Source: Thunnus maccoyii
Taxonomy: Eukaryota; Chordata; Actinopteri; Scombriformes; Scombridae
DNA length: 64,000 nt
Direction: 5' to 3'
NCBI RefSeq assembly: GCF_910596095.1
Contig: NC_056533.1
Span: 7,165,001 to 7,229,000 of the forward strand
Both the position numbers and the translations under genes were made by a program. Below, in pieces: positions 1 to 28,700 of the stretch (its first letter is position 1; each line of letters starts with the position of its first letter). Under the pieces are notes generated by a model that was given only the letters and a program-made list of their open reading frames with translations, was not told the DNA's origin and did no database searches.

Positions 1-1096
1 AATCTAGTTCAGTCTATGAATGCATAGATATTATAAATGTATAAATTATGTATATGGAACCTTGTGAATTGTTTGTCAGAAATTAAAATCTTTGAAGTTT
101 AGTTCTGTATATTTGAAACATCTAAATGCTTGTATGTCATATATTTTTTTACAAAAACAAGATAATTATGAGAAATCCCTGTTGCACTACAGCAAAAACA
201 GCAATATGAGTATAAGTCATGACTGGTAAGACCCAATCAGGAAGTGAACATGGGTGCCTGCATCATTGGTTTTAAAAAAGTCGCAATCCAAGAGTTTTCA
301 AACTAAAATAGGGTCAGCAGCATTTTCAAAATTCTCTGTTTTAGGGGTTCGCAAACACTGGAGTAGTGTGGATGCTAGGCATTAATGTAGCAAATGTTGT
401 GCGTTTTAAAACAAAAATGTATTAGTGTGGTTGTAGTATGTGTCTCTTTTATGTTTGAGTAGGCCTTGTGTAGTGTTGTAGACTGCTGTCCATTTTATGT
501 TCATGTTATTCCTGTGTAAGAAAGACATGGTAGACATGGAGACAGTGCACCTAGCCTGTTGCTGTCTATCGGTGGTGGTGCTGAACCGTTTGTCAATCAA
601 TGCATGTAGTGCTCCGCATGCTGTCCTCGGTGCTGAAACACTTGAACACTTGAACCTGGCAACCTGTCTTTTTTTTTCCTTCAGAATAAGCTTGCTTGAC
701 AAAGTGCCTTCACTATGTTTTCTTAGACATGGGCTTGCTTGGCTCAATAAGTGACAATTTGTGTTTATGGATAGGATAGGATCCATCAGCGTTTTGACAG
801 GTTTGAATTTTTAAAATGACTTTATCAGAAGGGCCCCTTGAAAATGCGCCGACCCCTCTGCGCTGAGAGTCTAGCTCCGCCCCTGCCTAGTATCTTTTAT
901 TTACTGTAGAAATACTGTAAAAATGTAATACTTAATGATTTGCTGATACAGACCGATACACACGCCAACATGTGAATAATGGGAGTACCGGCACTTATTT
1001 TTTTCCACTTCAAGCACTGTTATTAGCACATACTACACATGACACGATATGAGTGTTGCACTATAAAATTGACTTAATATACTATTTTCCTTCCAG
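1..1096. other. Non-coding stretch, probably an intron of the partial adhesion GPCR
   Basis: No open frame here has coding character and no TM1-type exon is visible. The next exon downstream starts in phase 2 and needs an upstream exon like the one 1.9 kb before the equivalent exon in the paralogue at 12052-12170. This stretch is therefore most simply the tail of that intron. Confidence 0.5.
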
Positions 1097-2217
1097 AAAT
1101 TGGCGTCCAGAGAAGGTGATCGGTGTGCATATGCAACTAGCAGGGGCACTGCTCTGCCTCCACCTCAGCTTTCTGGTGTGCAGTATGTTAGTGTTGCAGC
1201 AGAATGAGAACGAGGAGGGCTGGGTTTGCCAAGTTATGGGTCTCATTTTACACTGGTCCCTGCTGGCCACCATCAGCTGGACAGCTCTGGAGGGATTCCA
1301 TCTCTACCTTCTCCTAGTCCAAGTCTTAAACGTGAAGAGATACCTGCTCAAACTCAGCTTGGTGGGATGGGGTGAGTAGATTCTGAGTTGGACAGTGAAA
1401 CTGTCGAATAGTTGTTGCATTTCATTTAATTTCCTTAAATCAATACATGCAACCATACAGTCAGGGCTTGTGGACATAAACTCTGTCTTTCATGTCTTTA
1501 TGCAGGTCTTCCTACACTGATTGCAGTGGTTTGTGGGGTTTCAGGTGTTTATGGGAAATACAGTCTGGAACTGAGGGATGCCAACAACCACACAACAGTG
1601 CAGATGTAAGAAACCAAGATTCATTGTTAGGATTTTAAATATGTAACCACCTTGGGTGTTTGAATTTTCAGCAAGTATACACTGTGATTTGCTCTGCTCT
1701 TCCTTATTCTCCACCAACAAGCAGGTTATTTGGAATTCAAAGCTTTCTGCTTAAACATTTTTCCCAACCTGCAGGTGCTGGATGAGCAGCAAGTTCCCAC
1801 AGAGGCTTTTGGTCAGCTATGTCATTACTATGGCCCTTCTGTTACTGTTGATACTGTGTAATTCCTGTATGCTGGGACTGGTGGTGTGCAAGCTGCAGGG
1901 GCTGAGAGGAGGTGGCGGGGATGTGATGAACAGAGAGAAAGGAAGCAGGTTGTGGAAGGACTGTGCCACAGTGCTGGGTCTCAGCTGTGTTCTGGGGTTA
2001 CCATGGGTGTTAGGCAGCGCCACCTTAATCTCCCTCCCCCAGCTGTACCTGTTCACTGTACTCAACTCCCTGTCAGGTCAGTATGTTCTGGATCCTCATA
2101 GAGTAAATATTGCTTATATGTAAGACTGGAAGACAAATTTACAGCTTTTCTTTTCTCCCCTCAGGTGTATTTGTGTTCCTGTGGTCATGGTCTTTGATTG
2201 ACGAGCCTCAAAGATAA
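1097..2217 (+). CDS. Adhesion GPCR, ADGRG3/ADGRG5-like, 3' part only (four last coding exons)
   Basis: Coding exons are 1097-1371, 1506-1605, 1775-2076 and 2165-2217, stop TAA at 2215-2217. All junctions are GT-AG and the frame is continuous (phases 2, 1, 2, 1), the same structure as the complete paralogue at 7441-16555. The translation covers TM2 to TM7 of a family B2 receptor. It includes the TM3 motif [20 protein letters not shown], a TM4 start LSLVGWGLP, TM5 after a CWMSSKFPQRLL loop, and TM6 with GLSCVLGLPW. No stop interrupts it, so it looks functional. The extracellular region, GPS and TM1 must lie left of the window. The cytoplasmic tail is very short, ending about nine residues after TM7, whereas the paralogue has a Ser/Asn-rich tail about 20 residues longer. 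The extracellular loop 2 exon is one codon shorter than in the paralogue. Ligand and coupling cannot be read from the sequence. Confidence 0.85.
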
Positions 2218-4455: not shown

Positions 4456-4545
4456 TCTCAGATGAAAACTCAAATCCTGTGTTTCATAAAGTTAACATAC
4501 TCATATCACAGAAAAGAACTCGAATCCTGTGTTTCATTAAGTCCA
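4456..4545. repeat. Local tandem duplication at the 3' end of the Penelope-like fragment
   Basis: Two imperfect copies of about 35 bases containing ATCCTGTGTTTCAT, at about 4457-4493 and 4508-4545. The second lies in the final codons of the endonuclease fragment and the first just beyond it. Confidence 0.6.
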
Positions 4546-4825
4546 TAAGGTTCAATAGTATTCAATTCATAAATCCAAAATGCCTCACTTCTTAAGAGCT
4601 GGTTAATCAAGTCACCACCTCTTGGATTGCGTCGCACTCTTTCAATGCCGATAAATTTGAGGGACGTAGCTGACCCATGGTTTTTCTCCTTGTGGTGTCT
4701 AGCAATGGCATAATCCATATTACCATTTCTTATGTTCAGCAACTCTTAGTTTGAGATGGCGCTTTGTTTGGCCTACATACATTAAGCCACATGGGCATTT
4801 CAAGATGTATATGACATGTGTAGAG
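4506..4825 (-). pseudogene. GIY-YIG endonuclease fragment of the Penelope-like element, frameshifted
   Basis: One minus-strand frame from about 4814 reads VIYILKCPCGLMYVGQTKRH, the core GIY-YIG motif of Penelope-like endonucleases, and reaches AEHKK before a stop near 4730. The frame that starts at 4742 continues the same protein through RNGNMDYAIARHHKE, RGGDLINQLL and WIYELNTIEPYGLNE to its natural C-terminus at 4506. The two parts overlap out of register, so an indel has broken the gene. It is too degraded to be active. Confidence 0.75.
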
Positions 4826-4847
4826 AGACAGTACCTTCTTACATGTG

Positions 4848-6230: not shown

Positions 6231-6231
6231 T

Positions 6232-6715
6232 ATGTGTCCATATGAACAGTGTGTGTGCTTTCAATATAGGTGATGGGAGCCAAAATCCACAGTGTGTCCA
6301 CACAGTCATTTTGTGCAAAAGTTCATCTGAAGTTTATATGAGGCTTCAGCAGTCTGAGTTAGTCATATCAAGTGAATATCTGCCACATTTACAGTCTTTT
6401 TAGCATCAAATTCCCTCTTTGTGATTCTTCGGACAGTGTTTCCCTGCTAAGTAACAAAAAGAGGGGCTTTGGCACTAAAAAGACTGACACTTAACAATAT
6501 CTAATTGATTTGACTCATTTGGATGACTGAAGCTTCATATTAGCATCAGATAAACTTTTAAATACATTGTTGAACAGAAGGAGGACTGTGGATTTTAGCC
6601 TTCGTCATTTACATTGTAAGTGCATTATGAAGAGATCTTCTGATGGTCAGTATGAACAGGAGGAATGATTATGACTAGAAAAACCTATTTCAATGTTCAT
6701 TTGGGCTCCTGACTG
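6232..6715. mobile_element. Fold-back (long inverted repeat) non-autonomous element, copy 1
   Basis: The two halves are imperfect reverse complements. GGAGCCAAAATCCACAGTGT near 6270 pairs with a segment near 6580-6600, and a 'CTTCAGCAGTCTGAGTTAGT' arm pairs with the opposite strand near 6510-6530. The left arm has lost about 70 bases relative to the right. A second member lies at 10312-10834. There is no coding capacity. The structure fits the fold-back MITEs common in fish; the superfamily is not certain. Boundaries are approximate. Confidence 0.7.
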
Positions 6716-7440
6716 TGGTTTTAAGAGAAATTTGAAAAGTTGTGAGCCTGGCCTTTAAATCAATTTTCATTAAAGTTTTTTCCCTCACAAACCTTGAATA
6801 TTGCATGTGTTTATGAATAAAATAAAGCATTATAGGAGAGTGTCTAGTTTTGCCAAAGCCAATTTCATTTTTTCATGTGAGCTGCCACCTTTGGAACACA
6901 TTAAGTGATGCAGGTCTGTCTCTTTCACTTCCCCCGCTAACAGTAAGTGTCTGTATTGTTGACCACTATGACTTGACTTCTTTCTGCTTGCGTATTGGAA
7001 AAGTGTCACATTTGAGAAACTTCCCCTTCATTCTAGGCAGTGCCTAGAGTGAAAAATCATTATAAAATATTCCCATCATTTGTTTCTATGAACAACTACA
7101 AACATGTATGTGATATTGTCTATTGTAAATGATATAACTAATAAATAACATTTTAGCTTGGCTCAGTGATTCATATAAATATAAGTCATTCTCTCATGAG
7201 CAGATAAATATGTTCATTAGATTTCTTTTAAAACTCAACTTCACTAGCTCTCTGTAAAAATCCTTATGTCATTGTACTTCGTTTGAAAACATATCTGATA
7301 TGGATCACTTCCTGTCAACCCTCACTCTGCCACCAACATGTGATGTATGCCGATGTGACTCAAACAACCTCAAACAAGCAGAACAGTGCAGTGTGTTGAA
7401 CTGATAGACCATACGTGTGTTTGAGGAACAGTGAGAGAGG
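6716..7440. other. Upstream flank of the ADGRG3/5-like gene
   Basis: Presumed promoter and 5' UTR of the gene starting at 7441. I see no clear TATA box close to the ATG and no other gene. Confidence 0.4.
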
Positions 7441-10400
7441 ATGTGGATGACTCTTTGTCTCGTCTCGCTCGTCTGGGTTTCTACGACTCAAGCTGGTGGT
7501 GAGTTTTTCCACATGTTTATTTTGTGTTAATGGTTGTGTGCTTGTGAGGTGAGCACCACTTGAACTGTTAATATATATATATCAAGGTTCCCCGAGTAAG
7601 TGGTGGACAGTTTCTCTCATGTTCTTATTCTGGAGTGAGATCTGTCATTAGCATGTTTTATCTTATACTGTCAATCTTGTATCCAGTGTGTATCCATCCA
7701 TACACTGTACTATCTTTAACTATTTGACTTTCTTTCTCTGTCACTTTGACAGGCTGTGAAAATGTCTTCCATGAGTGTGGCCAAACTGTCTCCTGGACCA
7801 GGTAACTCATTCAGTGGATACTAAGCTCATGCTGTAGATCTTACACTCCTCCTTTTAAGGGCAATATACATCTATCTACTACACCAATGTTCCCTGATGT
7901 CTAATGAATGCTGGAGTAGCTTTGATATGATTGTGAAAGACAACCTGAAAGTAAAAAAGGACATAAAAAAGCGACTGAGCAAATGAATTATAACATACCG
8001 TATATCATATACATGACTCTGTGAATATCAAGGTTTTGAGCTTTTTCTCAACCCATAAATGACTGCGTATGATAATCCTTAAATTAATGTCACAAATCTG
8101 CAATGTTTTTACTCAGCAGGACCAGTAGTTGTTAATCTAAAAGTTTTCTCATAGAAATAATTGATTCATGTAGTTATCTTTCTGTATAACTTTGCTTGGT
8201 TTGCTGAAATGCTGAAATGTGTCTGTGTTGGTAGGTGTTATGACCACAAAATTCGAAAATGTACGATAAGAGGCCGTGGTATGCTAAACTTCATTCAACA
8301 GAGGGTGAACTCGTCTCAAGAGGTGAGGTCAAAATTTGGGGTAACAGACCCTGCAGCTTCTGTCTTGGTTCTTAGAGGTAAAACTATATGAAGTTTTATA
8401 TGGAATTCACCAACAAATGAGCAAAACAGGAGAAAAAAATGTTTTTGTGTTGTTCATCAAGAGTGATTAAAGACAGAGAATAATAATAATTTTACATATT
8501 CCACATCATACATACGAGTTCAGGATGTCTTTCTTGGAACGTACAAAAAACCAGAACAATTAAAATCATCCTCAACAAGTTACAAGTACATGTATTCATC
8601 ATTTTTATTGCCAATGAGTGAACAGGCTGTAATGTTACATAAAAAATGAGACCTTCCCTGTCTTTCTCGGATGCATGTCACAGCCTGTGGACTGGTTTCT
8701 ATGTGACCACAAAAAGCCTTGTCTCTCTCTCGCTGACGTCAACAAACAACCAGCATAACGACACAACAATACAACACAACAAACTGAGTAGAAACACCTT
8801 GCAGATATTAGCTCTCCAGCTAATGACACGGATAACTGCCTCCGTCAACCACTATACATTTCACAACTAAACATCCCTGCAATGACAAGTCGCCCACTCC
8901 GGAGCTACCTCTTTAGTTTTTTCTGTTGATAGTCCGAAGGTGATAATAAGCACACATTTCACAACAAAACTGATTGACTGGGAGTGAGAGATGCTTTGCT
9001 GAAACACAGTGCAAAACACAACATTAGAGATCTTTTATGTTATTATGAGAAGCGAGCACGCAAGCGAGAGTAGCAGGATGTAGACTGCAGCTCACTCAAC
9101 AGCTACTGGTGTCACCAATTTCTGATTGGAATTTCTGATTCTTACAAATAGAACTTTTACATATATGTTTTCCTTGGTGTTTGTGATGTTTTTGTGTGTA
9201 CTTGTGTTTTTTTAGGCTGAGGAGAGTCCTACTACTGAACACAGGGTTCACATCCCATCCTCAGCTCTACAGACATGCAGAGGAGATGATCCTGAGGAGG
9301 AGGTACAGCTGGTGATCACTGTGCTCAGCAGCACTTATTTCAAGGTCAGTAGCTGAACATGCAAACTTTGAGCAACAGGAGACTTCTTTAGTTACTCCTC
9401 GGTTGCCTGTATTATTCAATACTAATCACAATGGACATGTAGATACAGAGAGGCAGGTGAATTAGGAAGTTTTTTTTTTCAGGAGAATAGATAAGGAAGT
9501 GGAGCCTAATGTTAGCTTCCACTTTAAGTTGGTTGCATTTTCTTTTCATGCTGATTTGCACTGATTTCCAAAAACTCTGTATAACCAAAGTCAGCTGTTG
9601 TGTACAAATAAAACTGAGGAAAGGTTGATACTGTAGCTCATGTTGTTGCAATTCTTCTACATTTCAAATTAACTTCATCCAAGCCCTCATGTCATGTATC
9701 GCTACTGGAACTTTTGTCCATTGTTGCAGCTGAGTTCCCCGCTGCCAAAAGGACGGGGGAGAGTACTCAGACCCAGCCCTCCTGTCCACAGGCAAGACAC
9801 TGTTATGGGGGAGTCAGTGCTGGTAGTGAAGGCAGGGAACTCCCCAGTCAGAAACCTCCCACAACCCATCAAATTAATCTTCAAACACAACAAAGAGGTA
9901 AAATGACTAAACCAGTTGTGCTAGCATTACAAAAGTGTCACAATCTGCTTTCCTCTTATGTTTTTGTAATATATGTTTCAGGTGGAAAATGGGACTTGTG
10001 TGTTTTGGGAGGAGTCAGAGCTGGGTGATGGAACAGGTGGGTTACATACAGCAGATCAGTCTACAGTGAGTTTCACCTCAATTTTTCTCTCAAATAAAAA
10101 AATTAACTCTTTTATATGTGTCTGTGTGTTTTCAGGTCACTGGAGTAAAGTCAGTGATACCAAAGACAATGGAACTCATTTCATTTGTAGCTGTTACCAC
10201 CTGAGCTTCTTTGCTGTGCTTGTGGTAAAAGCATCTTTGTACAGACTATTTCCTCTAAGTATTTGTTCTTTTTTCAGTCATTTTCTCACACATTCACACA
10301 TTTTAATACATTTTTCTTGCCATAATCATTCCTCCTGTTAATACTGGCCAGTAGAAGATCCCTTTATAATGCACTTACAATGTAAGTGATGGGGGGCAAA

Positions 10401-13400
10401 ATCCACAAGCCTTATCCTGTGCATAAATGTATTTAAAGGTTTATCTAAAGCTAATATGAAGCTTCTGCCACCCAAATGAGTCAAATCAAGTAGATATGTC
10501 AATGTTACAGTCTTTTTAGTGCTGACTTTCCTCTGTTTGTTACTATACTTCTGCTGTTTAACAGTGAAACACTGTCCAAGGAAACACAAAGAGGGAATCT
10601 GATGCTAAAAAGACAGGCAGATATCCACTTGATATGACTAACTCAGACTGATGAAGCCTCATATAAGCCAGATAAACTTTTAAATGCATTTTTGCACAAA
10701 ATGACTGTGTGGATTTTGGCCTCCATCACTTACATTGAAAGCACATTTGAAGGGGATCTTCTCATAGCCAGTATGAACAGGAGGAATGATTATAGCAAGG
10801 AAAAACTGTCAGTGTCCATATGGACACTTGACTGAACACAGACTTAAAAAACTGTGAACTTAACATGTTCACATCATGCAGTATGTCACAGGAGGAAAAG
10901 TACAGGTGTGAATAATCTAATATTATAATGGCTGAATTCCACGTGGCTGCTTCAGTTTCAGGGTCTTGGTATTGTGCATTCTGGCTCACTGCCACACTGT
11001 CTTGGCTAACTGGGACACTTGAATTGAACAGAGCCATCATTAATGTTATTAATAACACCTGTGTTTTTCCCGCTATAAATGTCTGCTATAATAAAGGACT
11101 ATGGGTCCACATGAGAGTGGATTCGCAGCTCCACAAAGTTTTTTCTGGTAGTTTGGGGTAGAAGTTTGTACCAATTGACCGTTGGCTAAACCCTTCCCCC
11201 AAACAGCAATTGTTCAGTCATAGCCTGGCAACCATGAAGGCACAGCAGGCCTGTCAAGCTTTGTATTTTCTCAACAAGTGGGAATGATGTGAATGGAGCT
11301 GTAGCAAGAGCAGCACTCTGCTTTTAAATAGGGAGGGTGGAGTCTTCTTTAGACTTTCCAAAGGGTTAGCTAACTACTCAGCTGGAGGGAACAGACATTT
11401 TGCCTGAGACGTGTTAGCTTTTTTTTTTTTAGCACATTATCATGTAGGTATCAAGTAGCCTATGAGATTATAATTTTAAAATGAGGCAGCTGGAAATATT
11501 AAACATTTTTCTTGACTAACTCATGGAGCTAGTTAATGTTAGCCTAATTATCTAGCTACAGCTGATCAAATCTGGCAGAGAAAGTTGACATTACAGACGA
11601 CCAAATGAACGGTTGCTGGCTAGAAATGAGAAGCCTGCTTTTGTCAACCTCTGTCTGAAATCAATGAGTCAAAAAATTACAAAAAAAATTTGAGTAGTAA
11701 ATCAGCTACTGTTATCATGGTAAAGTGCATTATGTACTGTGTGAGAAGTAAAGCTCAACAAGCGTAGTAACAGTAACTGAGGGGAGCGGAACTTAGAAAA
11801 TAGCTAATTCAGCCACACAGATTTTCTCATTCTAGCTGAAAGACTACAGGCTATCACTGTTTGAAGGTACTTTATTGTCACTTGGGTACGTAACTGGGGA
11901 ACGACATTGTCACAGAGGCACAGAGCAAAGCTATACTTTAAGTACTAGTAAACCTGAATCAACTAGTACATTATACTAAAGAAAGCTCTGTCTGCCTTCT
12001 GAGCTTTAAATACAGTTTGAATATTTTTTATTGTATCTTGTCCTCTTCCAGAACCCCAAAGTATCAGTGGATAAAAGAAATGCTGAGAACCTTAACTATA
12101 TCACCTACATTGGATCAACCCTCTCCGTCTTCTTCACAGCCATCAGCTTGATCATCTATATATGTCTACAGTGAGTTTTTTGTTTGACTTTAACTGAACA
12201 TTTTGATAATGATAATAATCTTTCTTAAGTCCTTTTTGTCAAGGGACTGAAGCAATATATGCATGGTAAATGTGTGTTCTTGGATTTTCTTCACAGAACA
12301 ACAGTGTTTTCTTCTAGACACATGGCAGAATTTTTTAGATGAGATTCTGTTCTTATATTTTGACTCATGACTAATTTAGTCACTCTCGGCTGCTTGAGTG
12401 TTGTGCCCAAAAGTTATGTGGGTCAAAGGCTCTTTTATGCACAAAACAGGTTGATTCTTTTATAGTGTTGTTCTCTGCGTGTACAGTTTTCACATGCCTT
12501 TTCGTGCAAGGTGGGTGAGAGTGACTCACCTCAGTAAACAAGAACAAACCAAAAAGAGAGAGCATGTGCAACAAATACACAGACATATCCTGCTTCACCT
12601 GCAGACGTGATTACATGTGCATCTACTAATATGTGAAAAATTAGTAATGGGGCATTGAAGAAAGTGTTGGTAGTATGCATTTTTCTAAGACTTCAGTTCT
12701 GCAAAGGAAGGCATGCATCTTTGCACTCCGAGGTCACAGAAGTTTGTCATAAGGTCATGTAGGTCAAACAAGGTCAGTGATTGAACTCAAGATGCAGGTT
12801 CAAAACAAAAAAAAAATGTGTGATATGTTTGCGTTACTATAGATCTTAATGATACCCGAGCATGTTTATTTACAGACAGCCCAAAGAAGCATCCTGTTCC
12901 AGCCCTCTTTACCCAGTGACACATAGACAGGATGCTTTATCTTGCATGCCTCATCTGTTATCAACTGTGGAGAAATACAAACTCATTTGCTTTGCTAGTG
13001 TGTGGTTTTCTTTTCAACCACTGTGCAGGAGTTTTGACACTTTGTCATGATTCAAAGTGAAATATCCCCTCACCAGTGGTTTCTGAGATGATGCATGTTT
13101 ATGCCAGGTCGCAATGCATCCTGGGCCATGTTGAAAGACCCCTTACTCAACTGACGTCGTCTATTTCCCAGCAGACTTGGCAGGAGAATTGCATTGCTGC
13201 CTCCAGGTCCATGTACCCTCCGTCCAATGCTGTGTTAAACTTGTTTGATAAGAGGATAAAGAAATTGATTATTTTATATTTCCGTTTTAGTGAGAATTAA
13301 AAAAAAAAAAATCTACTTCCCATTTTTCAAGTTCCCCTAATCTGTTTCCCTCTTTAAATCAGCAGTTGTAATACAAATTAAACCAAAACCAGAAAATAAC

Positions 13401-16400
13401 TTGTTTTTCACTTGTCTGACTAAAAAAGTATTTTAGAAGCTAAACGTTTAATCCTTTTTTTTCTGGATAGTCCTGTCAAGATGATAACTACAGTTTTTTA
13501 GTTTTGCTGCGCTGCTCGACATAATGGAGCTCAGGATTTATCAGGAGGATGGCTGCTTAAATCCAAACAGTATAAACCTGGACTTTGTGTGTAACAGCTG
13601 ACCTTGAGGATGTGTAGAAGAACACAGAACATTATTTAACATTAGATCCTGACTGATCCTGTCAGTGTGTCAGAGATTTTAATAATCAATGCAGTGACGC
13701 TGCTGTGGGGTGCAGCCCCTCATTGTCATACAGTAATGAAGTAAGCCATCAAGATCAAATACAGCAGACTCTCTACTCAGTCTCAAATTAGTGTGGTAGC
13801 CACCCAGCCTGCACAGAGTAAACAAAAAAGTACTACATCAGTGGCTAAGGTGTTTGATTGATTGATGTCTTTACCAGTTTAGCGTGGTAAAGTGATCAAT
13901 ATATGAAATTAAATTGTGTTTCAGCTGGACATAAAGGATGGCATTCAGGACTCAAGAGGATGTGATTTAAGTGGAATTGTTATTTACAGTGTGATGATGA
14001 AATCGGTAAAAGATAGAATTCAGGTCAGAAATAGCCAGATGTAGTATGTGCTGAGCAGGCAATACAAAAATGTACTCATTATATGGTGTATTCTGTTTCC
14101 TTACAGACGGCAGCGTCCAGAGAAGGCCATTGGTTTGCATATGCAGCTAACAGGTGCGCTGCTCTGCCTGCACCTCAGCTTCCTGCTGTGCAGCTTTTGG
14201 GTGCGGCTGCTTGATGACGAAGACTGGGTTTGCGAAGCTCTCGGTTTCTTTTTACACTGGTCCCTGCTGGCCACCATCAGCTGGACGGCTCTGGAGGGAT
14301 TCCACCTCTACCTTCTCCTCGTCCAAGTCTTTAACATCTACGTCAGGAGATACCTGCTCAAACTCAGCTTGGTGGGATGGGGTGAGTGGAGCTTGGGTTG
14401 GACAGTACTTCGTTCCAACAAGTCAGTTTTTTAAGGTGTATGAAGGTGTTGTCTTCTGATGTACTGTTGATAAGTCAGACAAATAGCCAAATTAATATTG
14501 CCTGAATAAGACTGATGTATGAATGTTTGTTTTTTCAGTTCTAATTATTTATTAGAATTATATATTATAATACTGTGACGACATTGGTGAAAAACAACCA
14601 CCACTGCAGAAATATGAAACATATGGTGTCTTGTAGCATGCACACAAGTAGTATCACGATGAGGGCAGGATTACCAACTGAACTACCCCAGGCCCTGAAT
14701 GCCCCTATATTCCTTTTGTGTCAGTTGGTTCTATATACAATATCAGCTGAAATATTGGGGGGCTTAAACCTGCAATAATTTTTTTTTTTGGCCACAGTGG
14801 AAACAAGCTGTGTAAACTAACATGTTTTCCCCTGACAAGTTGATATAACAATCTTGTTAGCAAACTGTTGCTTATTTACACATTCAGCAGATACTAAGCA
14901 ACATTAGCATTCATTAAGAGAGATATTTCTGTCCACCTGATAAATGTAAATCCAATATTCTCTCTCCTTTTAACTCTGTTGTTGTTTGTTGCAAACTCCT
15001 GGGGAAAAAAAAATCTGTCTCTTTGGCTACTAAATGCTCACCAGCTAATCCTCAACTTTGTCTGAGCAGGTAGCGTACAGTGGGTTTATTAGAGCTTTTT
15101 TCACTGAAAACAGCTTATTGCAGCTGAAAATGACACTAATGAATGTAATGAACCAAAATAGTAAGTTGCAAGCTGTAAAACCAAAACAAAGAGCTGAAAG
15201 ATGCTAAATTGCAGAGTCAGGTGAAAATCCTCCTCAAGCAACACCTTTCACATACTAGTACTCATTCCATACTAGTACTCATCCACATACTGGTAGATCC
15301 ATTATTAATATAAAACTATTGATAATAACTGCTTTAAGGTGGCTCCTACATTATTAACGGTCTAGTGGAGCACTGTGTCAAACTTTACACAGCACACATC
15401 CCTTTTAACAAATAGTAAGTCTGCAGGTTAATGACTGTGATATACATTTCCGTTGGCTGCTGCAGGCAGCTGCACCAAAAGAAATAGCAATGCAATAAGA
15501 GTAAAAGAAGTCTGCAGCAGATGTAATGAATGCAAGTTTCAAAACAAGGAAGGAAATGTTTGAATATTAACGGTTGACTTTTTGTTGGTCTCAGTCACTG
15601 TATAGTAAAATGTAACCAAAGGTCCTTTGAGTACCTTGAACTGGAAAAGATTCTTCTCTATGTTATTTAGACAATGACTTTAATTCAAAATCTTAATGTA
15701 AAGGAATTCATTTGCACCACCGCAGATAACCATACAGTCAGGGCTTGTTGGAGTGAACTCTGTCTTTCATGTCTTTATGCAGGTCTTCCTACACTGATTG
15801 CAGTGGCTTGTGGGATTTCAGGTGTTTATGGGAAATACAGTCTGAAACTGACTGATGCTAACAATTCCAATTCAACAGTGCAGATGTAAGAAATCAAGAT
15901 TCATTGTGACAATTTTCAATATGCATCACATAATGGATTTGAATTCTTAGCAAGTGCACATTGTGATTTCAACTTTGCTATTTATTCACTGTCCTCATGC
16001 AGGTTATTTTTTAATTGTCTCTCTGATTCTTCTTTTTTAAAATACCCTGCAGGTGCTGGATGAGCAGCGAGTTCCCACAGAGGCTTTTGGTCAGCTACAT
16101 CACTACTGTGGCCTTTCCATGCCTGGTGATACTATATAATTCCTGCATGTTGGGACTGGTGGTGTTCAAGCTGTGGGGGCGTAAGATAGGTGACGGTGGC
16201 TGGAACAAGATGAACAGAAAGAAATGGAGCAGACTGTGGAAGGATTGTGCCACAGTGCTGGGCCTCAGCTGTGTGCTGGGGTTACCTTGGGGGTTAGCCA
16301 GCACCACCTTCATGTCCCTTGCTGGGATATACATCTTCACTATACTCAACTCCTTGCAGGGTCAGTATGTGCAGGATGCTCACATATAAAGTGTTCTGTG

Positions 16401-16555
16401 TTTATATGTTTGCTGGAATTGACAGCTTTTCTTTTCTCCTCTCAGGTGTATTTGTGGTCCTGTGGTCCATAGCTTTGACCTGTGCATCCCGATCCAATAA
16501 TAACTCCTCAGTCAAAGACTCTTCCTCTCAGAAAATGATGACTACTAGTTTATAG
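7441..16555 (+). CDS. Adhesion G protein-coupled receptor, group G, ADGRG3/ADGRG5-like (complete, 516 aa)
   Basis: Twelve coding exons: 7441-7498, 7753-7801, 8235-8322, 9216-9344, 9730-9897, 9982-10036, 10136-10224, 12052-12170, 14107-14381, 15783-15885, 16053-16360, 16446-16555. All are GT-AG with matching phases; the sum is 1551 nt. Residues 1-18 are a signal peptide (MWMTLCLVSLVWVSTTQA). A short Cys-rich segment with four Cys follows (about 21-45), then a GAIN subdomain B and a GPS (170-206, CVFW... CSCYHLS) with predicted autoproteolysis between Leu205 and Ser206. The tethered agonist would begin SFFAVLV. TM1 is at about 226-250 and TM7 at about 462-490; the tail is Ser/Asn rich. The ectodomain of about 200 residues is short like ADGRG3/ADGRG5 and lacks the ADGRG1 PLL domain. 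Oddity: the second of the four GPS cysteines is replaced (Asp190 region). Orthology within the subgroup is inferred; function is not readable. Confidence 0.9.
10312..10834. mobile_element. Fold-back element, copy 2, inside an intron of the ADGRG3/5-like gene
   Basis: A nearly complete palindrome with arms of about 240 bases and a centre near 10557. CTTGCCATAATCATTCCTCC at about 10318 pairs with the region ending at about 10801. CAATGTAAGTGATGGGGGGC at about 10379 pairs with about 10715-10735. It belongs to the same family as 6232-6715 and is better preserved. It is non-coding and lies in the 1.8-kb intron between the GPS exon and the TM1 exon. Confidence 0.8.
10860..11103. mobile_element. Short inverted-repeat MITE, copy 1
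   Basis: The ends are imperfect inverted repeats: GGAAAAGTACAGGTGTGAAT on the left mirrors ACACCTGTGTTTTTCCCGC on the right. A related element with the same arm motifs sits at 59272-59472 in the other receptor gene's intron. It has no coding capacity, and its edges are approximate. Confidence 0.6.
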
Positions 16556-16697
16556 TATAATAACTGAAACAGCTAAAACAACTGTATTATTTATCCATTA
16601 CCTATATTAGGTCTTTGCTGGCCTTTGGATTCCAGTTTTATGCAGCTAAATGATAACTTACAATAATTTTATTTGTTGATGTCTTCCTGCTTCTTTT

Positions 16698-16703
16698 AAT
16701 AAA
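16698..16703 (+). terminator. Candidate poly(A) signal of the ADGRG3/5-like gene
   Basis: AATAAA lies 143 bases after the stop. The equivalent position is AATAAT in tandem unit 2 and intact AATAAA in unit 3. Confidence 0.6.
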
Positions 16704-17789
16704 GATAGAATTGAAAACCACGCATCAGGTTATTTATCTATGGCATCACCACCTGGGCTGGCTTTTGCCGATATAATTGTGACTAAATTGGAAAAGACTA
16801 TATTTACATTTCTGCCATAAAATGATATGCCTGTTTTGTCAATGATATTCTTGTTTTGGCCAGACATCGGTCTGTCCCAGGATTCTGGACTGTTAAAATG
16901 CTTTTCATCCACATTTTGTGTTCACTGATTCATTTTCTAATACTGACACTATTCATTTCCTAGACCTAAACTTCAGATCTAATAATGAGATCTTCATATT
17001 CTAAATTATGACACACAAGACAATACATTCATTTCACCAGCTTTATTTCTTAGCAAGACTGAATCTCACTGATTAAAACTTAACAAAAACTCTGTAGTCC
17101 TAATCAATTAAGTCTAGAAGAAATATTATATACAAGATCATGACAAAATTGTGGTAGGAAAAACCATTCAAGTAACCTCAAGACAGACTGTTGTCCTGAG
17201 ATATGGATTCATCTATTCCACAATTTACTGGAAAACTTGTAGAACAAATCTTAAAAGATCACAAAATCCAAGAGGAATCTAACTATAGAGGTCAAGTTCA
17301 GAATGTGGGACTTTAAACTTTAAAGTATTTTAAAGTTCTGTTATAAATCACGTCAAATCTCCAACACAAAATGCTGCTTGATTTCCAGATAAGATAAGTG
17401 AACATGTAAGAACATAATGAAATGAATTCAAACATCTAACTGCTATAACGAAACATCCTGTTGAATCAGGCTTGACACCTGGAACAAGGCTGAAGACAAC
17501 TCATGAAAAAGACGTTAATCTATGGACAATATGCAACAACCCAGATATAATCTACCAGAGTAAATACTTAGTCATCCTACTTCTAAAAAAACATTGGTCA
17601 TTAGCAGAAAATAAACTTCCCTTGAACTGTGGTTTCAAAGCTTCTAAGGAACTGAAGTTGTTGACGTGACATTTAGAGCTTTTGGTTTTGACATTTATTG
17701 ATGTCCAGTCTCGCAAGCAGTTTAGGCCTGTGATGACATCATCAGCCTAACTGATGCAACTAAGTAATCACCACATTTATTGATTGAGA
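16704..17789. other. Intergenic part of tandem unit 1
   Basis: No gene is recognised. The same DNA recurs in units 2 and 3. Minor frames seen here recur only because the DNA is duplicated. Confidence 0.6.
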
Positions 17790-20062
17790 ATGAGGAAGAC
17801 TGGGTTTGCGGAGCTCTTGGTTTCTTTTTACACTGATCCCTGCTGGCCACCATCAGCTGGACGGCTCTGGAGGGATTCCACCTCTACCTTCTCCTCGTCC
17901 GAGTCTTTAACATCTACGTCAGGAGATACCTGCTCAAACTCAGCTTGGTGGGATGGGGTGAGTGGAGCTTGGGTTGGACAGTACTTCGTTCCAACAAGTC
18001 AGTTTTTTAAGGTGTATGAAGGTGTTGTCTTCTGATGTACTGTTGATAAGTCAGACAAATAGCCAAATTAATATTGCCTGAATAAGACTGATGTATGAAT
18101 GTTTGTTTTTTCAGTTATAATTATTAATTAGAATTATATATTATAATATTGTCACGACACAAGGACAGTAGTATCACGATGAGGGCAGGATTACCAACTG
18201 AACTACCCCAGGCCCTGAAGGCCCCTATATTCCTTTTGTATCAGTTGGTTTTATATACAATATCAGCTGAAATATTGGGGGGCTTAAACCTGCAATAATT
18301 TTTTTTTGGCCACAGTGGAAACAAGCTGTGTAAACTAACATATTTTCCACTGACAAGTTGATATAACAATCTTGTTAGCAAACTGTTGCTTATTTACACA
18401 TTCAGCAGATACTAAGCAACATTAGCATTCATTAAGAGAGATATTTCTGTCCACCTGATAAATGTAAATCCAATATTCTCTCTCCTTTTAACTCTGTTGT
18501 TGTTTGTTGCAAACTCCTGGGGGAAAAAAAATCTGTCTCTTTGGCTACTAAATGCTCACCCGCTAGTCCTCAACTTTGTCTGAGCAGGTAGCGTACAATG
18601 GGTTTATTAGAGCTTTTTTCACTGAAAACAGCTTATTGCAGCTGAAAATGACACTAATGAATGCAATGAACCAAAATAGTAAGTTGCAAGCTGTAAAACC
18701 AAAACAATGAGCTGAAAGATACTAAATTGCAGAGTCAGGTGAAAATCCTCCTCAAGCAACACCTTTCACATACTAGTACTCATTCCATACTGGTACTCAT
18801 CCACATACTGGTAGATCCATTATTAATATAAAACTATTGATAATAACTGCTTTAAGGTGGCTCCTACATTATTAACGGTCTAGTGGAGCACTGTGTCAAA
18901 CTTTACACAGCACACATCCCTTTTAACAAATAGTAAGTCTACAGGTTAATGACTGTGATATATATTTCTGTTGGCTGCTGCAGGCAGCTGCACCAAAAGA
19001 AATAGCAATGCAATAAGAGTAAAAGAAGTCTGCAGCAGATGTAATGAATGCAAGTTTCAAAACAAGGAAGGAAATGTTTGAATATTAACGGTTGACTTTT
19101 TGTTGGTCTCAGTCACTGTACAGTAAAATGTAACCAAAGGTCCTTTGAGTACCTTGAACTGGAAAAGATTCTTCTCTATGTTATTTAGACAATGACTTTA
19201 ATTCAAAATCTTAATGTAAAGGAATTCATTTGCACCACCGCAGATAACCATACAGTCAGGGCTTGTTGGAGTGAACTCTGTCTTTCATGTCTTTATGCAG
19301 GTCTTCCCACACTGATTGCAGTGGCTTGTAGGATTTCAGGTGTTTATGGGAAATACAGTCTGAAACTGACTGATGCTAACAATTCCAGTTCAACAGTGCA
19401 GATGTAAGAAACCAAGATTCATTGTGACAATTTTCAATATGCACCACATAATGGATTTGAATTCTTAGCAAGTGCACATTGTGATTTCAACTTTGCTATT
19501 TATTCACTGTCCTCATGCAGGTTATTTTTTAATTGTCTCTCTGATTCTTCTTTTTTAAAATACGCTGCAGGTGCTGGATGAGCAGCGAGTCTTTTGGTCA
19601 GCTACATCACTACTGTGGCCTTTCCATGCCTGGTGATACTATATAATTCCTGCATGTTGGGACTGGTGGTGTTCAAGCTGTGGGGGCGTAAGATAGGTGA
19701 TGGTGGCTGGAACAAGATGAACAGAAAGAAATGGAGCAGACTGTGGAAGGATTGTGCCACAGTGCTGGGCCTCAGCTGTGTGCTGGGGTTACCTTGGGGA
19801 TTAGCCAGCACCACCTTCATGTCCCTTGCTGGGATATACATCTTCACTATACTCAACTCCTTGCAGGGTCAGTATGTGCAGGATGCTCACATATAAAGTG
19901 TTCTGTGTTTACATGTTTGCTGGAATTGACAGCTTTTCTTTTCTCCTCTCAGGTGTATTTGTGGTCCTGTGGTCCATAGCTTTGACCTGTGCATCCCGAT
20001 CCGATAATAACTCCTCAGTCAAAGACTCTTCCTCTCAGAAAATAATGACTACTAGTTTATAG
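17790..20062 (+). pseudogene. ADGRG3/5-like 3'-half pseudogene, tandem unit 2
   Basis: Recognisable exon remnants are 17790-17957 (5' truncated), 19301-19403, 19571-19867 and 19953-20062. The Trp codon of the TM3 motif [10 protein letters not shown] has become TGA at 17834-17836. The TM5-TM6 exon has an 11-bp deletion right after the CWMSSE start (297 instead of 308 nt), which shifts the frame. Its poly(A) hexamer is also mutated (AATAAT). No GAIN, GPS, TM1 or promoter is present. With two independent disabling lesions and no 5' end, it cannot encode a receptor. Sequence otherwise matches unit 1 almost base for base, so decay is recent. Confidence 0.93.
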
Positions 20063-21348
20063 CATAATAACTGAAACAGTTAAAACAACTGTATTATTTA
20101 TCCATTACCTATATTAGGTCTTTGCTGGCCTTTGGATTCCAGTTTTATGCAGCTAAATGATAACTTACAATAATTTTATTTGTTGATGTCTTCCTGCTTC
20201 TTTTAATAATGATAGAATTGAAAACCATGCATCAGGTTATTTATCTATGGCATCACCACCTGGGCTGGTTTTTGCCGATATAATTGTGACTAAATTGGAA
20301 AAGACTATATTTACATTTCTGCCATAAAATGATATGCCTGTTTTGTCAATGATATTCTTGTTTTGGCCAGACATCGGTCTGTCCCAGGATTCTGGACTGT
20401 TAAAATGCTTTTCATCCACATTTTGTGTTCACTCATTCATTTTCTAATACTGACACTATTCATTTCCTAGACCTAAACTTCAGATCTAATAATGAGATCT
20501 TCATATTCTAAATTATGACACACAGGACAATATATTCATTTCACCAGCTTTATTTCTTAGCAAGACTGAATCTCACTGATTAGAACTTTAGTGTCTTGAG
20601 TCAAAAACTCTGTAGTCCTAATCAATTAAGTCTAGAAGAAATATTATATACAAGATCATGACAAAATTGTGGTAGGAAAAACCATTCAAGTAACCTCAAG
20701 ACAGACATCAGTCTGTCTTGAGGTTACCACCTTAAAACCTCAAGACAGACTGTCCTGAGATATGGATTCATCTATTCCACAATTTACTGGAAAACTTGTA
20801 GAACAAATCTTAAAAGATCACAAAATCCAAGAGGAATCTAACTATAGAGGTCAAGTTCAGAATGTGGGACTTTAAACTTTAAAGTATTTTAAAGTTCTGT
20901 TATAAATCACGTCAAATCTCCAACACAAAATGCTGCTTGATTTCCAGATAAGACAAGTGAACATGTAAGAACATAATGAAATGAATTCAAACATCTAACT
21001 GCTATAACGAAACATCCTGTTGAATCAGGCTTGACACCTGGAACAAGGCTGAAGACAACTCATGAAAAAGACGTTAATCTATGGACAATATGCAACAACC
21101 CAGATATAATTTACCAGAGTAAATACTTAGTCATCCTACTTCTAAAGAAACATTGGTCATTAGCAGAAAATAAACTTTCCTCGAACTGTGGTTTCAAAGC
21201 TTCTAAGGAACTGAAGTTGTTGACGTGACATTTAGAGCTTTTGGTTTTGACATTTATTGATGTCCAGTCTTGCAAGCAGTTTAGGCCTTTGATGACATCA
21301 TCAGCCTAACTGATGCAACTAAGTAATCACCACATTTATTGATTGAGA
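20063..21348. other. Intergenic part of tandem unit 2
   Basis: Duplicated non-coding DNA with no gene. Units 2 and 3 share about 20 bases near 20594-20614 (around TTTAGTGTCTTGAGTC) that unit 1 lacks. Confidence 0.6.
20690..20727. repeat. 17-bp perfect inverted repeat inserted in tandem unit 2 only
   Basis: GTAACCTCAAGACAGAC (20690-20706), a 4-base spacer, then its exact reverse complement (20711-20727). A third, direct partial copy follows at about 20738-20751. Units 1 and 3 have only the single ancestral copy at this place. Confidence 0.9.
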
Positions 21349-23699
21349 ATGAGGACGACTGGGTTTGCGGAGCTCTTGGTTTCTTTTTACACTGGTCCCT
21401 GCTGGCCACCATCAGCTGGACGGCCCTAGAGGGATTCCACCTCTAACTTCTCCTTGTCCAAGTCTTTAACATCTACGTCAGGAGATACCTGCTCAAACTC
21501 AGCTTGGTGGGATGGGGTGAGTGGAGTTTGGGTTGGACAGTACTTCATTCCAACAAGTCAATTTTTTAAGGTGTATGAAGGTGTTGTCTTCTGATGTACT
21601 GTTGATAAGTCAAACAAATAGCCAAATTAATATTGCCTGAATAAGACTGATGTATGAATGTTTGTTTTTTCAGTTATAATTATTAATTAGAATTATATAT
21701 TATAATACTGTGACAACATTGGTGAAAAACAACCACCACTGCAGGTACTGTAGGGCAAAGTTTCATAAGCTGTCTTGTAGCATGCACACAAGTAGTATCA
21801 CGATGAGGGCAGGATTACCAACTGAACTACCCCAGGCCCTGAAGGCCCCTATATTCCTTTTGTGTCAGTTGGTTCTATATACAATATCAGCTGAAATGTT
21901 GGGGGGCTTAAACCTGCAATTTTTTTTTTTGGCCACAGTGGAAACAAGCTGTGTAAACTAACATAACGTTTTCCCCTGACAAGTTGATATAACAATCTTG
22001 TTAGCAAACTGTTGCTTATTTACACATTCAGCAGATACTAAGCAACATTAGCATTCATTAAGAGAGATATTTCTGTCCACCTGATAAATGTAAATCCAAT
22101 ATTCTCTCTCCTTTTAACTCTGTTGTTGTTTGTTGCAAACTCCTGGGGGAAAAAAAATCTGTCTCTTTGGCTACTAAATGCTCACCAGCTAATCCTCAAC
22201 TTTGTCTGAGCAGGTAGCGTACAATGGGTTTATTAGAGCTTTTTTCACTGAAAACAGCTTATTGCAGCTGAAAATGACACTAATGAATGTAATGAACCAA
22301 AATAGTAAGTTGCAAGCTGTAAAACCAAAACAAAGAGCTGAAAGATGCTAAATTGCAGAGTCAGGTGAAAATCCTCCTCAAGCAACACCTTTCAGATACT
22401 AGTACTCATTCCATACTAGTACTCATCCACATACTGGTAGATCCATTATTAATATAAAACTATTGATAATAACTGCTTTAAGGTGGCTCCTACATTATTA
22501 ACGGTCTAGTGGAGCACTGTGTCAAACTTTACACAGCACACATCCCTTTTAACAAATAGTAAGTCTGCAGGTTAATGACTGTGATATACATTTCTGTTGG
22601 CTGCTGCAGGCAGCTGCACCAAAAGAAATAGCAATGCAATAAGAGTAAAAGAAGTCTGCAGCAGATGTAATGAATGCAAGTTTCAAAACAAGGAAGGAAA
22701 TGTTTGAATATTAACAGTTGACTTTTTGTTGGTCTCAGTCACTGTATAGTAAAATGTAACCAAAGGTCCTTTGAGTACCTTGAACTGGAAAAGATTCTTC
22801 TCTATGTTATTTAGACAATGACTTTAATTCAAAATCTTAATGTAAAGGAATTCATTTGCACCACCGCAGATAACCATACAGTCAGGGCTTGTTGGAGTGA
22901 ACTCTGTCTTTCATGTCTTTATGCAGGTCTTCCTACACTGATTGCAGTGGCTTGTGGGATTTCAGGTGTTTATGGGAAATACAGTCTGAAACTGACTGTT
23001 GCTAACAACTCCAATTCAACAGTGCAGATGTAAGAAATCAAGATTCATTGTGACAATTTTCAATATGCATCACATAATGGATTTGAATTCTTAGCAAGTG
23101 CACATTGTGATTTCAACTTTGCTATTTATTCACTGTCCTCAAGCAGGTTATTTTTTAATTGTCTCTCTGATTCTTCTTTTTTAAAATACGCTGCAGGTGC
23201 TGGATGAGCAGCGAGTTCCCACAGAGGCTTTTGGTCAGCTACATCACTACTGTGGCCTTTCCATGCCTGGTGATACTATATAATTCCTGCATGTTGGGAC
23301 TGGTGGTGTTCAAGCTGTGGGGGCGTAAGATAGGTGACGGTGGCTGGAACAAGATGAACAGAAAGAAATGGAGCAGACTGTGGAAGGATTGTGCCACAGT
23401 GCTGGGCCTCAGCTGTGTGCTGGGGTTACCTTGGGGGTTAGCCAGCACCACCTTCATGTCCCTTGCTGGGATATACATCTTCACTATACTCAACTCCTTG
23501 CAGGGTCAGTACGTGCAGGATGCTCACATATAAAGTGTTCTGTGTTTATATGTTTGCTGGAATTGACAGCTTTTCTTTTCTCCTCTCAGGTGTATTTGTG
23601 GTCCTGTGGTCCATAGCTTTGACCTGTGCATCCCGATCCAATAATAACTCCTCAGTCAAAGACTCTTCCTCTCAGAAAATGATGACTACTAGTTTATAG
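21349..23699 (+). pseudogene. ADGRG3/5-like 3'-half pseudogene, tandem unit 3
   Basis: Exon remnants are 21349-21516 (5' truncated), 22927-23029, 23197-23504 and 23590-23699. The last three are intact in length, frame and splice sites. The first has a stop: the Tyr codon after GFHL is TAA at 21444-21446, a different lesion from unit 2. The upstream exons are absent. The poly(A) hexamer AATAAA is kept at about 23842. Because its last three exons are intact, it could in principle serve as alternative 3' exons for a long read-through transcript, but no evidence for this is in the sequence. Confidence 0.92.
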
Positions 23700-24917
23700 T
23701 ATAATAACTGAAACAGCTAAAACAACTGTATTATTTATCCATTACCTATATTAGGTCTTTGCTGGCCTTTGGATTCCAGTTTTATGCAGCTAAATGATAA
23801 CTTACAATAATTTTATTTGTTGATGTCTTCCTGCTTCTTTTAATAAAGATAGAATTGAAAACCATGCATCAGGTTATTTATCTATGGCATCACCACCTGG
23901 GCTGGTTTTTGCCGATATAATTGTGACTAAATTGGAAAAGACTATATTTACATTTCTGCCATAAAATGATATGCCTGTTTTGTCAATGATATTCTTGTTT
24001 TGGCCAGACATCGGTCTGTCCCAGGATTCTGGACTGTTAAAATGCTTTTCATCCACATTTTGTGTTCACTGATTAATTTTCTAATACTGACACTATTCAT
24101 TTCCTAGACCTAAACTTCAGATCTAATAATGAGATCTTCATATTCTAAATTATGACACACAGGACAATATATTCATTTCACCAGCTTTATTTCTTAGCAA
24201 GACTGAATCTCACTGATTAGAACTTTAGTGTCTTGAGTCAAAAACTCTGTAGTCCTAATCAATTAAGTCTAGAAGAAATATTATATACAAGATCATGACA
24301 AAATTGTGGTAGGAAAAACCATTCAAGTAACCTCAAGACAGACTGTTGTCCTGAGATATGGATTCATCTATTCCACAATTTACTGGAAACAAATCTTAAA
24401 AGATCACAAAAACCAAGAGGAATCTAACTATAGAGGTCAAGTTCAGAATGTGGGACTTTAAACTTTAAAGTATTTTAAAGTTCTGTTATAAATCACGTCA
24501 AATCTCCAACACAAAATGCTGCTTGATTTCCAGATAAGACAAGTGAACATGTAAGAACATAATGAAATGAATTCAAACATCTAACTGCTATAACGAAACA
24601 TCCTGTTGAATCAGGCTTGACACCTGGAACAAGGCTGAAGACAACTCATGAAAAAGACGTTAATCTATGGACAATATGCAACAACCCAGATATAATTTAC
24701 CAGAGTAAATACTTAGTCATCCTACTTCTAAAAAACATTGGTCATTAGCAGAAAATAAACTTTCCTCGAACTGTGGTTTCAAAGCTTCTAAGGAACTGAA
24801 GTTGTTGACGTGATATTTAGAGCTTTTGGTTTTGATATTTATTGATGTCCAGTCTTGCAAGCAGTTTAGGCCTGTGATGACATCATCAGCCTAACTGATG
24901 CAACTATGTAATCACCA

Positions 24918-26753: not shown

Positions 26754-28385
26754 TCAGTCAGTTTTAAGGACAGCAGAGATCCTGAGAGGGGCAGAGTTGT
26801 CACCATCATCATTAAAACAAGGACTGAAGAATGGGTAGAGTTCGTCACTGAAGGAGCAACTGGTGAAAGAGTAGATAATATCTGCAGCATCGATATCATA
26901 AAAGGTGACCAGACCCTCCTCGTAATCCACAAACACTCCCACCTTCAGAGGCCGTGATTTCAGAGAGAGGAGGACATCGGGGTCGGCCAGAGCCATGTAC
27001 TCATTTCCATTCCTCAGCTGCAGAGTCCAGTAGCCGGCCTCTGGGCTCGATGTGATTTCTCCCTTCCTGTTGGCCGACCCGCTGGCCACTCCTAAATCCC
27101 ATTTCGTTTTCCCTTTAACTTCCACCTCATAGTAGAATCTGCCAGAAGAGAAACTCTGCTTTCCCAAGACGATGACACAATATGAAAATCTCTCTGGGTT
27201 GTCTGGGAGATTCTTCTCTACATTGTTGTGATTGACTTGTTTCCCATCGTCAGACAGGATGAGTTTGCGATGTGCTGTATCGGGATCGAGAGTTATGTCC
27301 GCTGCGTACTGCTGCACCCTCCTCAGCTCAGCTTCAAGCAGCTTCTCCATCCCTTTGCTGAGCGTTTCTTTGAGCTGAGACACAGCTCTCACCACAGTTC
27401 CCCCAAAAGATGGCTGACCGAGGCTGACTTTTGTCCAGTCCTTTGTGGGTAGAGAGGCGTTCAGTGAAGGGAACCGTCGGAGGAGTTGGAGGTGGTCTTT
27501 GGAGAGCGAGAGCAGCTCCGCCTCAGCATTTCTCTTCATCAGCTCTGAGATCTCCCGATCCAGCTCTTTGATGAAGCTCTCGGCCTGCTTCGCTGTGGTT
27601 TTCTGCTTCTTTTTGATCGTTTCAATGAGCTCAGCCAGGCCTGTCTCGACAGACTGCACCAGAGAAGTGAAGACCTGCACGCCATCTGCTATCTCTTTGT
27701 CTGCAGCCTCACTGCTGAGCTTTGCGGACTGTTTGAGCTCATGCATCTTCAGCTGTCTCTCCCGAATCATCTGCCGAAATTCGGCCTCTGTCTTCCCAAG
27801 CTCGGCCTTCTTCCCCTGCCATTCTTCTTTCAGAGGAACAACATCGTGTGACTCGTGGTCCGACTCAGTGCAAAACTGGCAAACACACATGCGGTCGGTC
27901 TTGCAGAACAGCTCCATTATTTCATTGTGCTTTGTACACATCCTGTCCTCAAGGTTCTCCAGAGGATCAATAAGCGTATGTCTCTTCAGCCCTGATACTG
28001 TCTGATGGCGCTCCAGGTGAGTCTCACAATATGAGGCCAGACACACCAGGCAGGATTTGAGGGCCTTCAGTTTGATCCCGGTGCAGACGTCACAGGGAAC
28101 ATCTCCTGGTTTAGCACGGTGTTGCTCTGAGCCTTTCTTTACAACTGACTCTCTGAACTGAGCAGCCATCTCTGATATGAATATATTGACATGCAGCTCA
28201 GGTCTTTTGTCATAAAGCTTTTTGCACACAGGACAGTGACATTTTCTGTTGATTCTCCAGTTTTCAGTGATGCAGTTTTTACAGAAGTTGTGTCCACACG
28301 GTATGGTGACAGGAGTGGTGAACACATCCAGGCAGATGGAGCACAAAAAGTTCTCCTCAGACAACAGACAGGTGGCAGCTGACAT
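26754..28385 (-). CDS. TRIM E3 ubiquitin ligase, bloodthirsty/TRIM39-like (543 aa)
   Basis: A single uninterrupted coding exon. From the start chosen here it has a C3HC4 RING (residues about 15-57, CSICLDVF, PCGHNFCKNC, CPVC), a B-box1-like zinc region (PCDVC...CLVC...CETH), and B-box2 at about 145-185 (MCTKH, CVCQFC, DHESHD). A long coiled coil follows at about 190-320, then a PRY-SPRY domain to the end (DITLDPDTAHRKL, KWDLGVA, LYPFFSPC). The family transfers ubiquitin to targets chosen by the SPRY domain; fish members of this type are often linked to innate immunity or erythroid development. The open frame extends upstream to an ATG at 28427. However, a good 3' splice site (TCTTTACTCTCGGTCTCAG, exon from 28395) lies between the two, so the Met at 28385, followed by SAATCLLSEENFL, is the likely start. 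The exact orthologue is uncertain because the family is large. Confidence 0.93.
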   Translation of the reverse strand: MSAATCLLSEENFLCSICLDVFTTPVTIPCGHNFCKNCITENWRINRKCHCPVCKKLYDKRPELHVNIFISEMAAQFRESVVKKGSEQHRAKPGDVPCDVCTGIKLKALKSCLVCLASYCETHLERHQTVSGLKRHTLIDPLENLEDRMCTKHNEIMELFCKTDRMCVCQFCTESDHESHDVVPLKEEWQGKKAELGKTEAEFRQMIRERQLKMHELKQSAKLSSEAADKEIADGVQVFTSLVQSVETGLAELIETIKKKQKTTAKQAESFIKELDREISELMKRNAEAELLSLSKDHLQLLRRFPSLNASLPTKDWTKVSLGQPSFGGTVVRAVSQLKETLSKGMEKLLEAELRRVQQYAADITLDPDTAHRKLILSDDGKQVNHNNVEKNLPDNPERFSYCVIVLGKQSFSSGRFYYEVEVKGKTKWDLGVASGSANRKGEITSSPEAGYWTLQLRNGNEYMALADPDVLLSLKSRPLKVGVFVDYEEGLVTFYDIDAADIIYSFTSCSFSDELYPFFSPCFNDDGDNSAPLRISAVLKTD

Positions 28386-28700
28386 GTTGAACACACTGAG
28401 ACCGAGAGTAAAGATATGAAAAAACAATTTTCAGTACTGAATTTAAAAAATACTTGTTTTAAAAAGAATAATGTTCGATTGTTAGGATATTAGTCGAAGT
28501 ACATTTGAATTATTGTCTTCTAGAAATGTTCATTTATCAAGAGCAGTGTCTTTCAGAATACAGCATGTATGTGTTAAAATTGCAAAGAGTAAAAATTGCA
28601 CTTACCTGTATGTATTTATGTAACTTCTCTGTTCTTAAAAAAGGCAGACTAAACCAAGCTTTGAATTGTCTTTAGAAGCAAAGACCTGTGGTGACTGCAG
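28386..28700 (-). other. Probable 5' UTR intron and non-coding first exon of the TRIM gene
   Basis: On the minus strand, CATACAG|GTAAGTGCAA (donor at about 28607) and the acceptor just before 28395 define a short intron of about 210 bases in the 5' leader. The promoter is presumably upstream of about 28700. No TATA box is claimed. Confidence 0.5.

Follow-up and report, generated by a model that had tools for sequence, protein, structure and literature searches.

A partial tandem array of an adhesion GPCR gene in Thunnus maccoyii, with a short and readable joint

The closest parallel found for the locus described here is the MYH3C array of the threespine stickleback, likewise a tandem array in a fish (PMC12776057). 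In the cited part of that preprint, a crossover origin was tested through the middle copies, which are expected to resemble the last copy at their 5' end and the first copy at their 3' end. Partial gene duplicates form a second relevant class, being DNA-based duplications of part of a gene like the array described here, and conversion over the shared part is discussed as a constraint on them in the cited part of PMC3449122. A third comparison concerns the joint itself, since templated insertions are held to be indicative of polymerase-theta end joining in the cited sections of PMC11724358, and the TMEJ templated insertions treated there (GDBr) resemble the present joint in placing a short insert from nearby sequence at the breakpoint. 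The present analysis covers a window of 64,000 nucleotides from Thunnus maccoyii (NC_056533.1, positions 7,165,001 to 7,229,000) and describes an ordinary partial tandem duplication that is decaying and has an unusually readable joint.

The duplicated gene, gene A, lies on the plus strand and was traced from its GPS to its stop, with an open frame from the GPS onward. Its GPS exons, matching Pfam GPS, occupy 9982-10036 (...CVFWE...) and 10136-10224 (...CSCYHLSFFAVLV), followed by a TM1 exon (NPKVSVDKRNAENLNYITYIG...) at 12052..12170 with an open frame, its splice sites and phase being set by eye. The TM2-TM3 exon (exon a), at 14107..14381, matches Pfam 7tm_2, and exons b, c and d at 15783-15885, 16053-16360 and 16446-16555 (stop) complete an open chain in one frame. 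The order is that of an adhesion GPCR, with a class-B type seven-helix domain after the GPS. When stops in the frame were read as X, Pfam GPS scored E 6e-4 and 20.7 bits, under the 22.5 cut-off; the joined exons from GPS to stop gave GPS above the cut-off (E 4e-9) and 7tm_2 at E 3e-26. A Pfam scan of the plus strand of 4301-14202 found a single GPS, before unit A, and no other domain. The best PDB match is ADGRG3/GPR97 (E 1e-50), and ADGRG1-G6 constructs take the top nine scores among 23 distinct sequences; judged by these best matches, the predicted receptor is nearest to the G-group (ADGRG). The gene A intron right after the second GPS exon holds a 97-nt inverted repeat (10311-10407 and 10708-10804, 86% complementary, 300 nt apart), perhaps a mobile-element remnant.

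An upstream paralogue, P, lies on the plus strand at 1096..2217, where TM2-TM7 exons were identified by alignment and by a Pfam 7tm_2 match on the first exon, with no exon found 5' of them. Read in the frame of A, its last exon (2165-2217) ends prematurely, with GVFVFLWSWSLIDEPQR then a stop, which may mean damage to P or simply a very short tail. For polarising sites P served as the outgroup, though a distant one. A third adhesion GPCR gene is present on the minus strand at 50985-56977, with 7tm_2 pieces and a PLL match below cut-off, the PLL domain being a feature of ADGRG1. The minus strand also carries a long open TRIM frame (RING, B-box, coiled coil, PRY-SPRY) downstream of the array at 26754-28430, and amino-acid permease exons at 42280-44145 (AA_permease_2, one of two pieces below cut-off).

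Self-comparison and an ungapped repeat search of the window revealed three direct copies, each about 3.56 kb long, from 14.2 to 24.9 kb, all on the plus strand. Unit A (14213..17773) is the 3' half of gene A with about 1.2 kb of flank, and units B (17785..21331) and C (21344..24917) are decayed. Each carries the exons of an ADGRG-type adhesion GPCR that run from TM2/3 through the stop, and then about 1.2 kb, the stop of A ending at 16555 and the unit therefore taking in this length of 3' flank. The left edge of the repeated unit falls inside the TM2-TM3 exon, its exact position being blurred because the bases of B and C before clear homology are nearer to the exon of paralogue P than to A. The outer right edge lies at 24909-24917 (plus strand) and reads TAATCACCA, after which homology stops. 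In the alignment each unit starts directly where the preceding one ends. Repeat searches and alignment thus bear out the initial annotation, made from the sequence before this analysis, in its description of three direct units running from the TM2-TM3 exon to 1.2 kb past the stop. Triplication of the whole gene was rejected, the units being contiguous and each only a 3' half in the alignment, with one GPS, ahead of A, in the plus-strand Pfam scan of 4301-14202.

Differences were counted over the 3469 gap-free core columns of a three-way alignment, with 62 between A and B (1.79%), 42 between A and C (1.21%) and 64 between B and C (1.84%), a likeness far above chance level. The indels include, in A coordinates, gaps of 32 and 24 bases in B at 14588-14643, 41 extra bases in B at 17188, a 10-base gap in C at 17233 and an 11-base gap in A at 17083; B also lacks 11 bases in the TM5 exon. 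The near-identity claimed for the units therefore holds as 98-99% likeness, with several indels besides. Within unit B, the 41-bp insertion creates perfect 17-base inverted arms and a further direct copy at 20690-20752, and is possibly another mark of local template switching, seen in B only.

The same 16 bases, ACATTTATTGATTGAG, stand at 17773 and 21332 with a spacing of 3559 bp, and both strands of the window are otherwise free of them. The initial annotation had reported one 16-base filler at both internal joints, absent at the outer edge, without spelling it out; taking ACATTTATTGATTGAG as that stretch, the statement is accurate save for the first of the 16 bases, which the outer edge also has. 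The right edge of C shares TAATCACCA with the joints and then diverges. Joint 1, between A and B, spans 17773..17784 with the insert ACATTTATTGAT, its first base common with the outer edge, and joint 2, between B and C, spans 21332..21343 with the same 12-base insert, both on the plus strand. No long homology exists between the two edges, which are unlike outside the unit, and extra bases are held at the joint. Microhomology at the copied stretch, judged by eye, amounts to no more than 1 base on the left; at the right end it is hard to read because A's exon differs there.

A putative template for the insert is an exact 12-mer in the 3' flank of unit A, at 17691..17702 on the plus strand. Within the window ACATTTATTGAT is present only at 17691, at 21250 in unit B and in the two joints, the first two places each lying 82 bp before a joint. 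A match as long was reached by 14 of 20,000 shuffled 17-base fillers and by 18 of 20,000 random 17-mers of the window, both against 300 bases on either side and both strands, and by 54 of 20,000 window 17-mers against their own upstream 300 bases on the same strand. The insert thus matches sequence near the break, as in polymerase-theta templated insertion, with a modest significance (about 0.0007 to 0.003) for a match noticed post hoc; MMBIR is an alternative source of such an insertion.

The exon-like start of unit B (17785..17800, plus strand, reading ENEED) is nearer to paralogue P than to A. In the 23-base stretch that ends in TGGG, 19 bases are the same as in the P exon by an eye count. 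A and P differ at 11 of the 18 positions ahead of TGGGTTTGC, and at these 11 B equals P at 7 and A at 4. These 7 agreements were reached by 373 of 50,000 random n-mers in the 18-base case, and the figure varies with the length taken, from 373 to 1086 of 50,000 over lengths of 15 to 22 bases (B only). Judged by these P-like bases, the exon that was copied probably resembled P more closely than A does today. The last joint bases would then be exon sequence, and P-like exon bases following the 12-mer point to a filler that is mainly a short templated insertion. The filler is therefore probably not random, combining a templated 12-mer with receptor exon sequence. End joining, to which the initial annotation had attributed filler DNA, agrees with a joint that lacks long homology, and fully random filler was rejected on the 12-mer match 82 bp upstream.

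Both extra units carry disabling changes. In the TM3 exon of unit B, TGG has become TGA at 17834-17836, the 11-bp deletion in its TM5 exon is a frameshift, and AATAAT stands in place of AATAAA. In the TM3 exon of unit C, TAC has become TAA at 21444-21446; its exons b-d are open and keep their splice-site motifs and AATAAA, with one residue differing from A (D to V). No GPS or TM1 exons precede B or C in the alignment, where the units are contiguous. The proposal that such 5'-less duplicates are born dead is upheld by the missing 5' half, the nonsense codon in each and the frameshift in B, and B and C look like dead partial pseudogene copies. Odd-one-out sites number 2 in A, 9 in B and 7 in C over 671 coding gap-free columns, and 18, 23 and 15, respectively, over 2798 other gap-free columns. 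Coding changes are fewer on A (2 of 20 versus 16 of 54 changes), which is not significant (Fisher p 0.13); from these counts B and C look neutral and A somewhat constrained, though not significantly so. Teleost germline rates are about 3-5e-9 per site and generation, at which a divergence of 1.2-1.8% would be about one to three million generations, an age that gene conversion would make an underestimate. The event is young on the scale of species, as had been proposed, and youth alone is no pointer to the copy-number polymorphism also suggested.

The variable sites form a mosaic. From 84 variable columns, 10 were dropped (edges of the B deletion, a poly-T run and the B insertion), leaving 74. 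C is the odd unit at 9 of 15 sites in the first block (14221-14550), B at 28 of 41 in the middle block (14573-16703) and A at 11 of 18 in the last (16721-17763). This three-block pattern was equalled by 7 of 4000 permutations with the 74 sites and by 1 of 2000 with all 84, and a two-block split was weaker (75 of 2000). A and C differ at 13 sites in the middle block versus 29 in the shorter ends, for which A-C conversion across the middle block would be the simplest reading; B could instead be faster-changing there. Longest-run tests for conversion were not significant (p 0.16, 0.46 and 0.22). The ongoing gene conversion put forward earlier is accordingly favoured by the mosaic and not by the longest-run tests.

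Polarising by P compared 27 rows, of which 7 were unpolarised and 20 used; a further 8 rows, out of the 18 of the first block, were left out because they lie within the joint or ahead of it (5 called A-derived, 2 shared by B and C, 1 unpolarised). The 20 polarised sites include 8 shared-derived ones distributed over all three pairings (BC 2, AC 3, AB 3), which indicates exchange, with some of these calls possibly being homoplasy given so distant an outgroup. Private changes number 7 in B, 5 in C and 0 in A.

With an identical joint in two places, one of the two extra units must have taken its joint from the other, in agreement with the initial annotation; the route of this copying is less certain. 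Unequal crossing over between A and its copy, which that annotation named and which the cited part of PMC12776057 infers for the stickleback MYH3C array, would be expected to give identical joints, and also a middle unit resembling C towards 5' and A towards 3'. Across the 42 A-versus-C sites, the best C-like-to-A-like split of B fits 23, a value reached by 17,330 of 20,000 shuffles. The reverse split (A-like 5', C-like 3') fits 28 of 42 (2018 of 20,000 shuffles), a weak trend opposite to the crossover prediction, and in the last block B equals C at 11 and A at 5 of 18 sites. A simple crossover history was rejected, the expected switch in the middle unit being missing. A crossover that took place while the copies were still identical, or that conversion later overwrote, is possible, and we rate this route as a serious candidate with less than even chances. 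One replicative event, through repeated template switching or rolling copying via the new joint, could have given both extra units, accounting for the identical joints as well as the missing crossover signature. No positive mark sets it apart from two events and B and C share just 2 of 20 polarised sites as derived, leaving it a tentative and somewhat doubtful reading. Allelic differences in some fish span 1.84%, so that the B-C difference would fit two alleles of one duplicate set in tandem by the assembly, wholly or partly creating the third unit. Such an artefact is improbable, since unit-specific indels and mosaic blocks are unlike two clean alleles, and at least one joint must be real because it holds sequence seen at neither edge.

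The joint bases themselves might be untemplated filler of classical end joining with matches arising by chance, as the modest significance, the selection of patterns after inspection and the little microhomology would allow; 12 of the 16 bases recur unchanged at a single nearby site, 82 bp off on the same strand, and we consider this origin unlikely. A working role for the extra units was also weighed, with gene A transcripts skipping to exons b-d of C as alternative 3' cassettes. These exons are open, one residue (D to V) from A, with splice-site motifs and AATAAA, and A-C likeness is highest over their stretch. The first exon of C, however, has a stop and begins past the position corresponding to the acceptor of A, the exons and AATAAA of A itself intervene, the resulting protein would hardly differ, and B is broken, making functional cassettes extremely improbable. 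A reading in which both extra 3' halves are retained, with exons b-d of C preserved by conversion from A to C and serving gene A as alternative 3' ends or a conversion reservoir, would likewise be a very long shot.

The preferred account combines templated joining, recopying of the joint-bearing copy, decay of B and C as pseudogenes and conversion between A and C, and as a whole we consider it reasonably probable. The units, joints, 12-mer match, disabling changes and mosaic are direct observations. In the repair pathway and order of events that we infer, a break at about 17.77 kb, or a fork stalled there, would have been rejoined into the TM2-TM3 exon of gene A on another chromatid or homologue, yielding a tandem copy of 3.56 kb that lacked the 5' half. 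During joining, the end may have briefly copied 12 bases from 82 bp upstream, by polymerase-theta end joining or MMBIR. The joint-bearing copy would then have been recopied once, by homology-based or replicative copying, to give A-B-C with two identical joints. Lacking the 5' exons of the gene, B and C would drift as pseudogene fragments, and gene conversion among the units, chiefly of A with C over about 14.57-16.70 kb and in a direction that is likewise inferred, may have kept parts alike.

The kind of event is already known, and the joint of this instance is short and preserved enough for a probable repair signature to be read in a vertebrate germline. Three units also allow crossover, replicative copying and conversion to be told apart as routes from duplication to array. 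No partial ADGRG array was found among the literature matches listed, which is no proof of absence from print. In the cited part of PMC12776057, the MYH3C array has one microhomology-type joint common to expanded haplotypes, with later homology-based growth inferred, and the history proposed here is similar. The MYH3C unit is described there as a full-length gene copy with an enhancer, whereas the present units are 5'-less and decayed; its middle copies show the crossover signature that the present middle unit lacks, and its copy number varies among populations, whereas the present array is known from one assembly. The partial duplicates given as examples in the cited part of PMC3449122 gained new function or recruited sequence, whereas no recruited 5' exon was noticed here. 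The TMEJ cases, as presented in the cited sections of PMC11724358, concern complex substitutions that show microhomology and were scored relative to a reference, whereas the joint described here belongs to a 3.56-kb duplication and has a left microhomology of at most 1 base.
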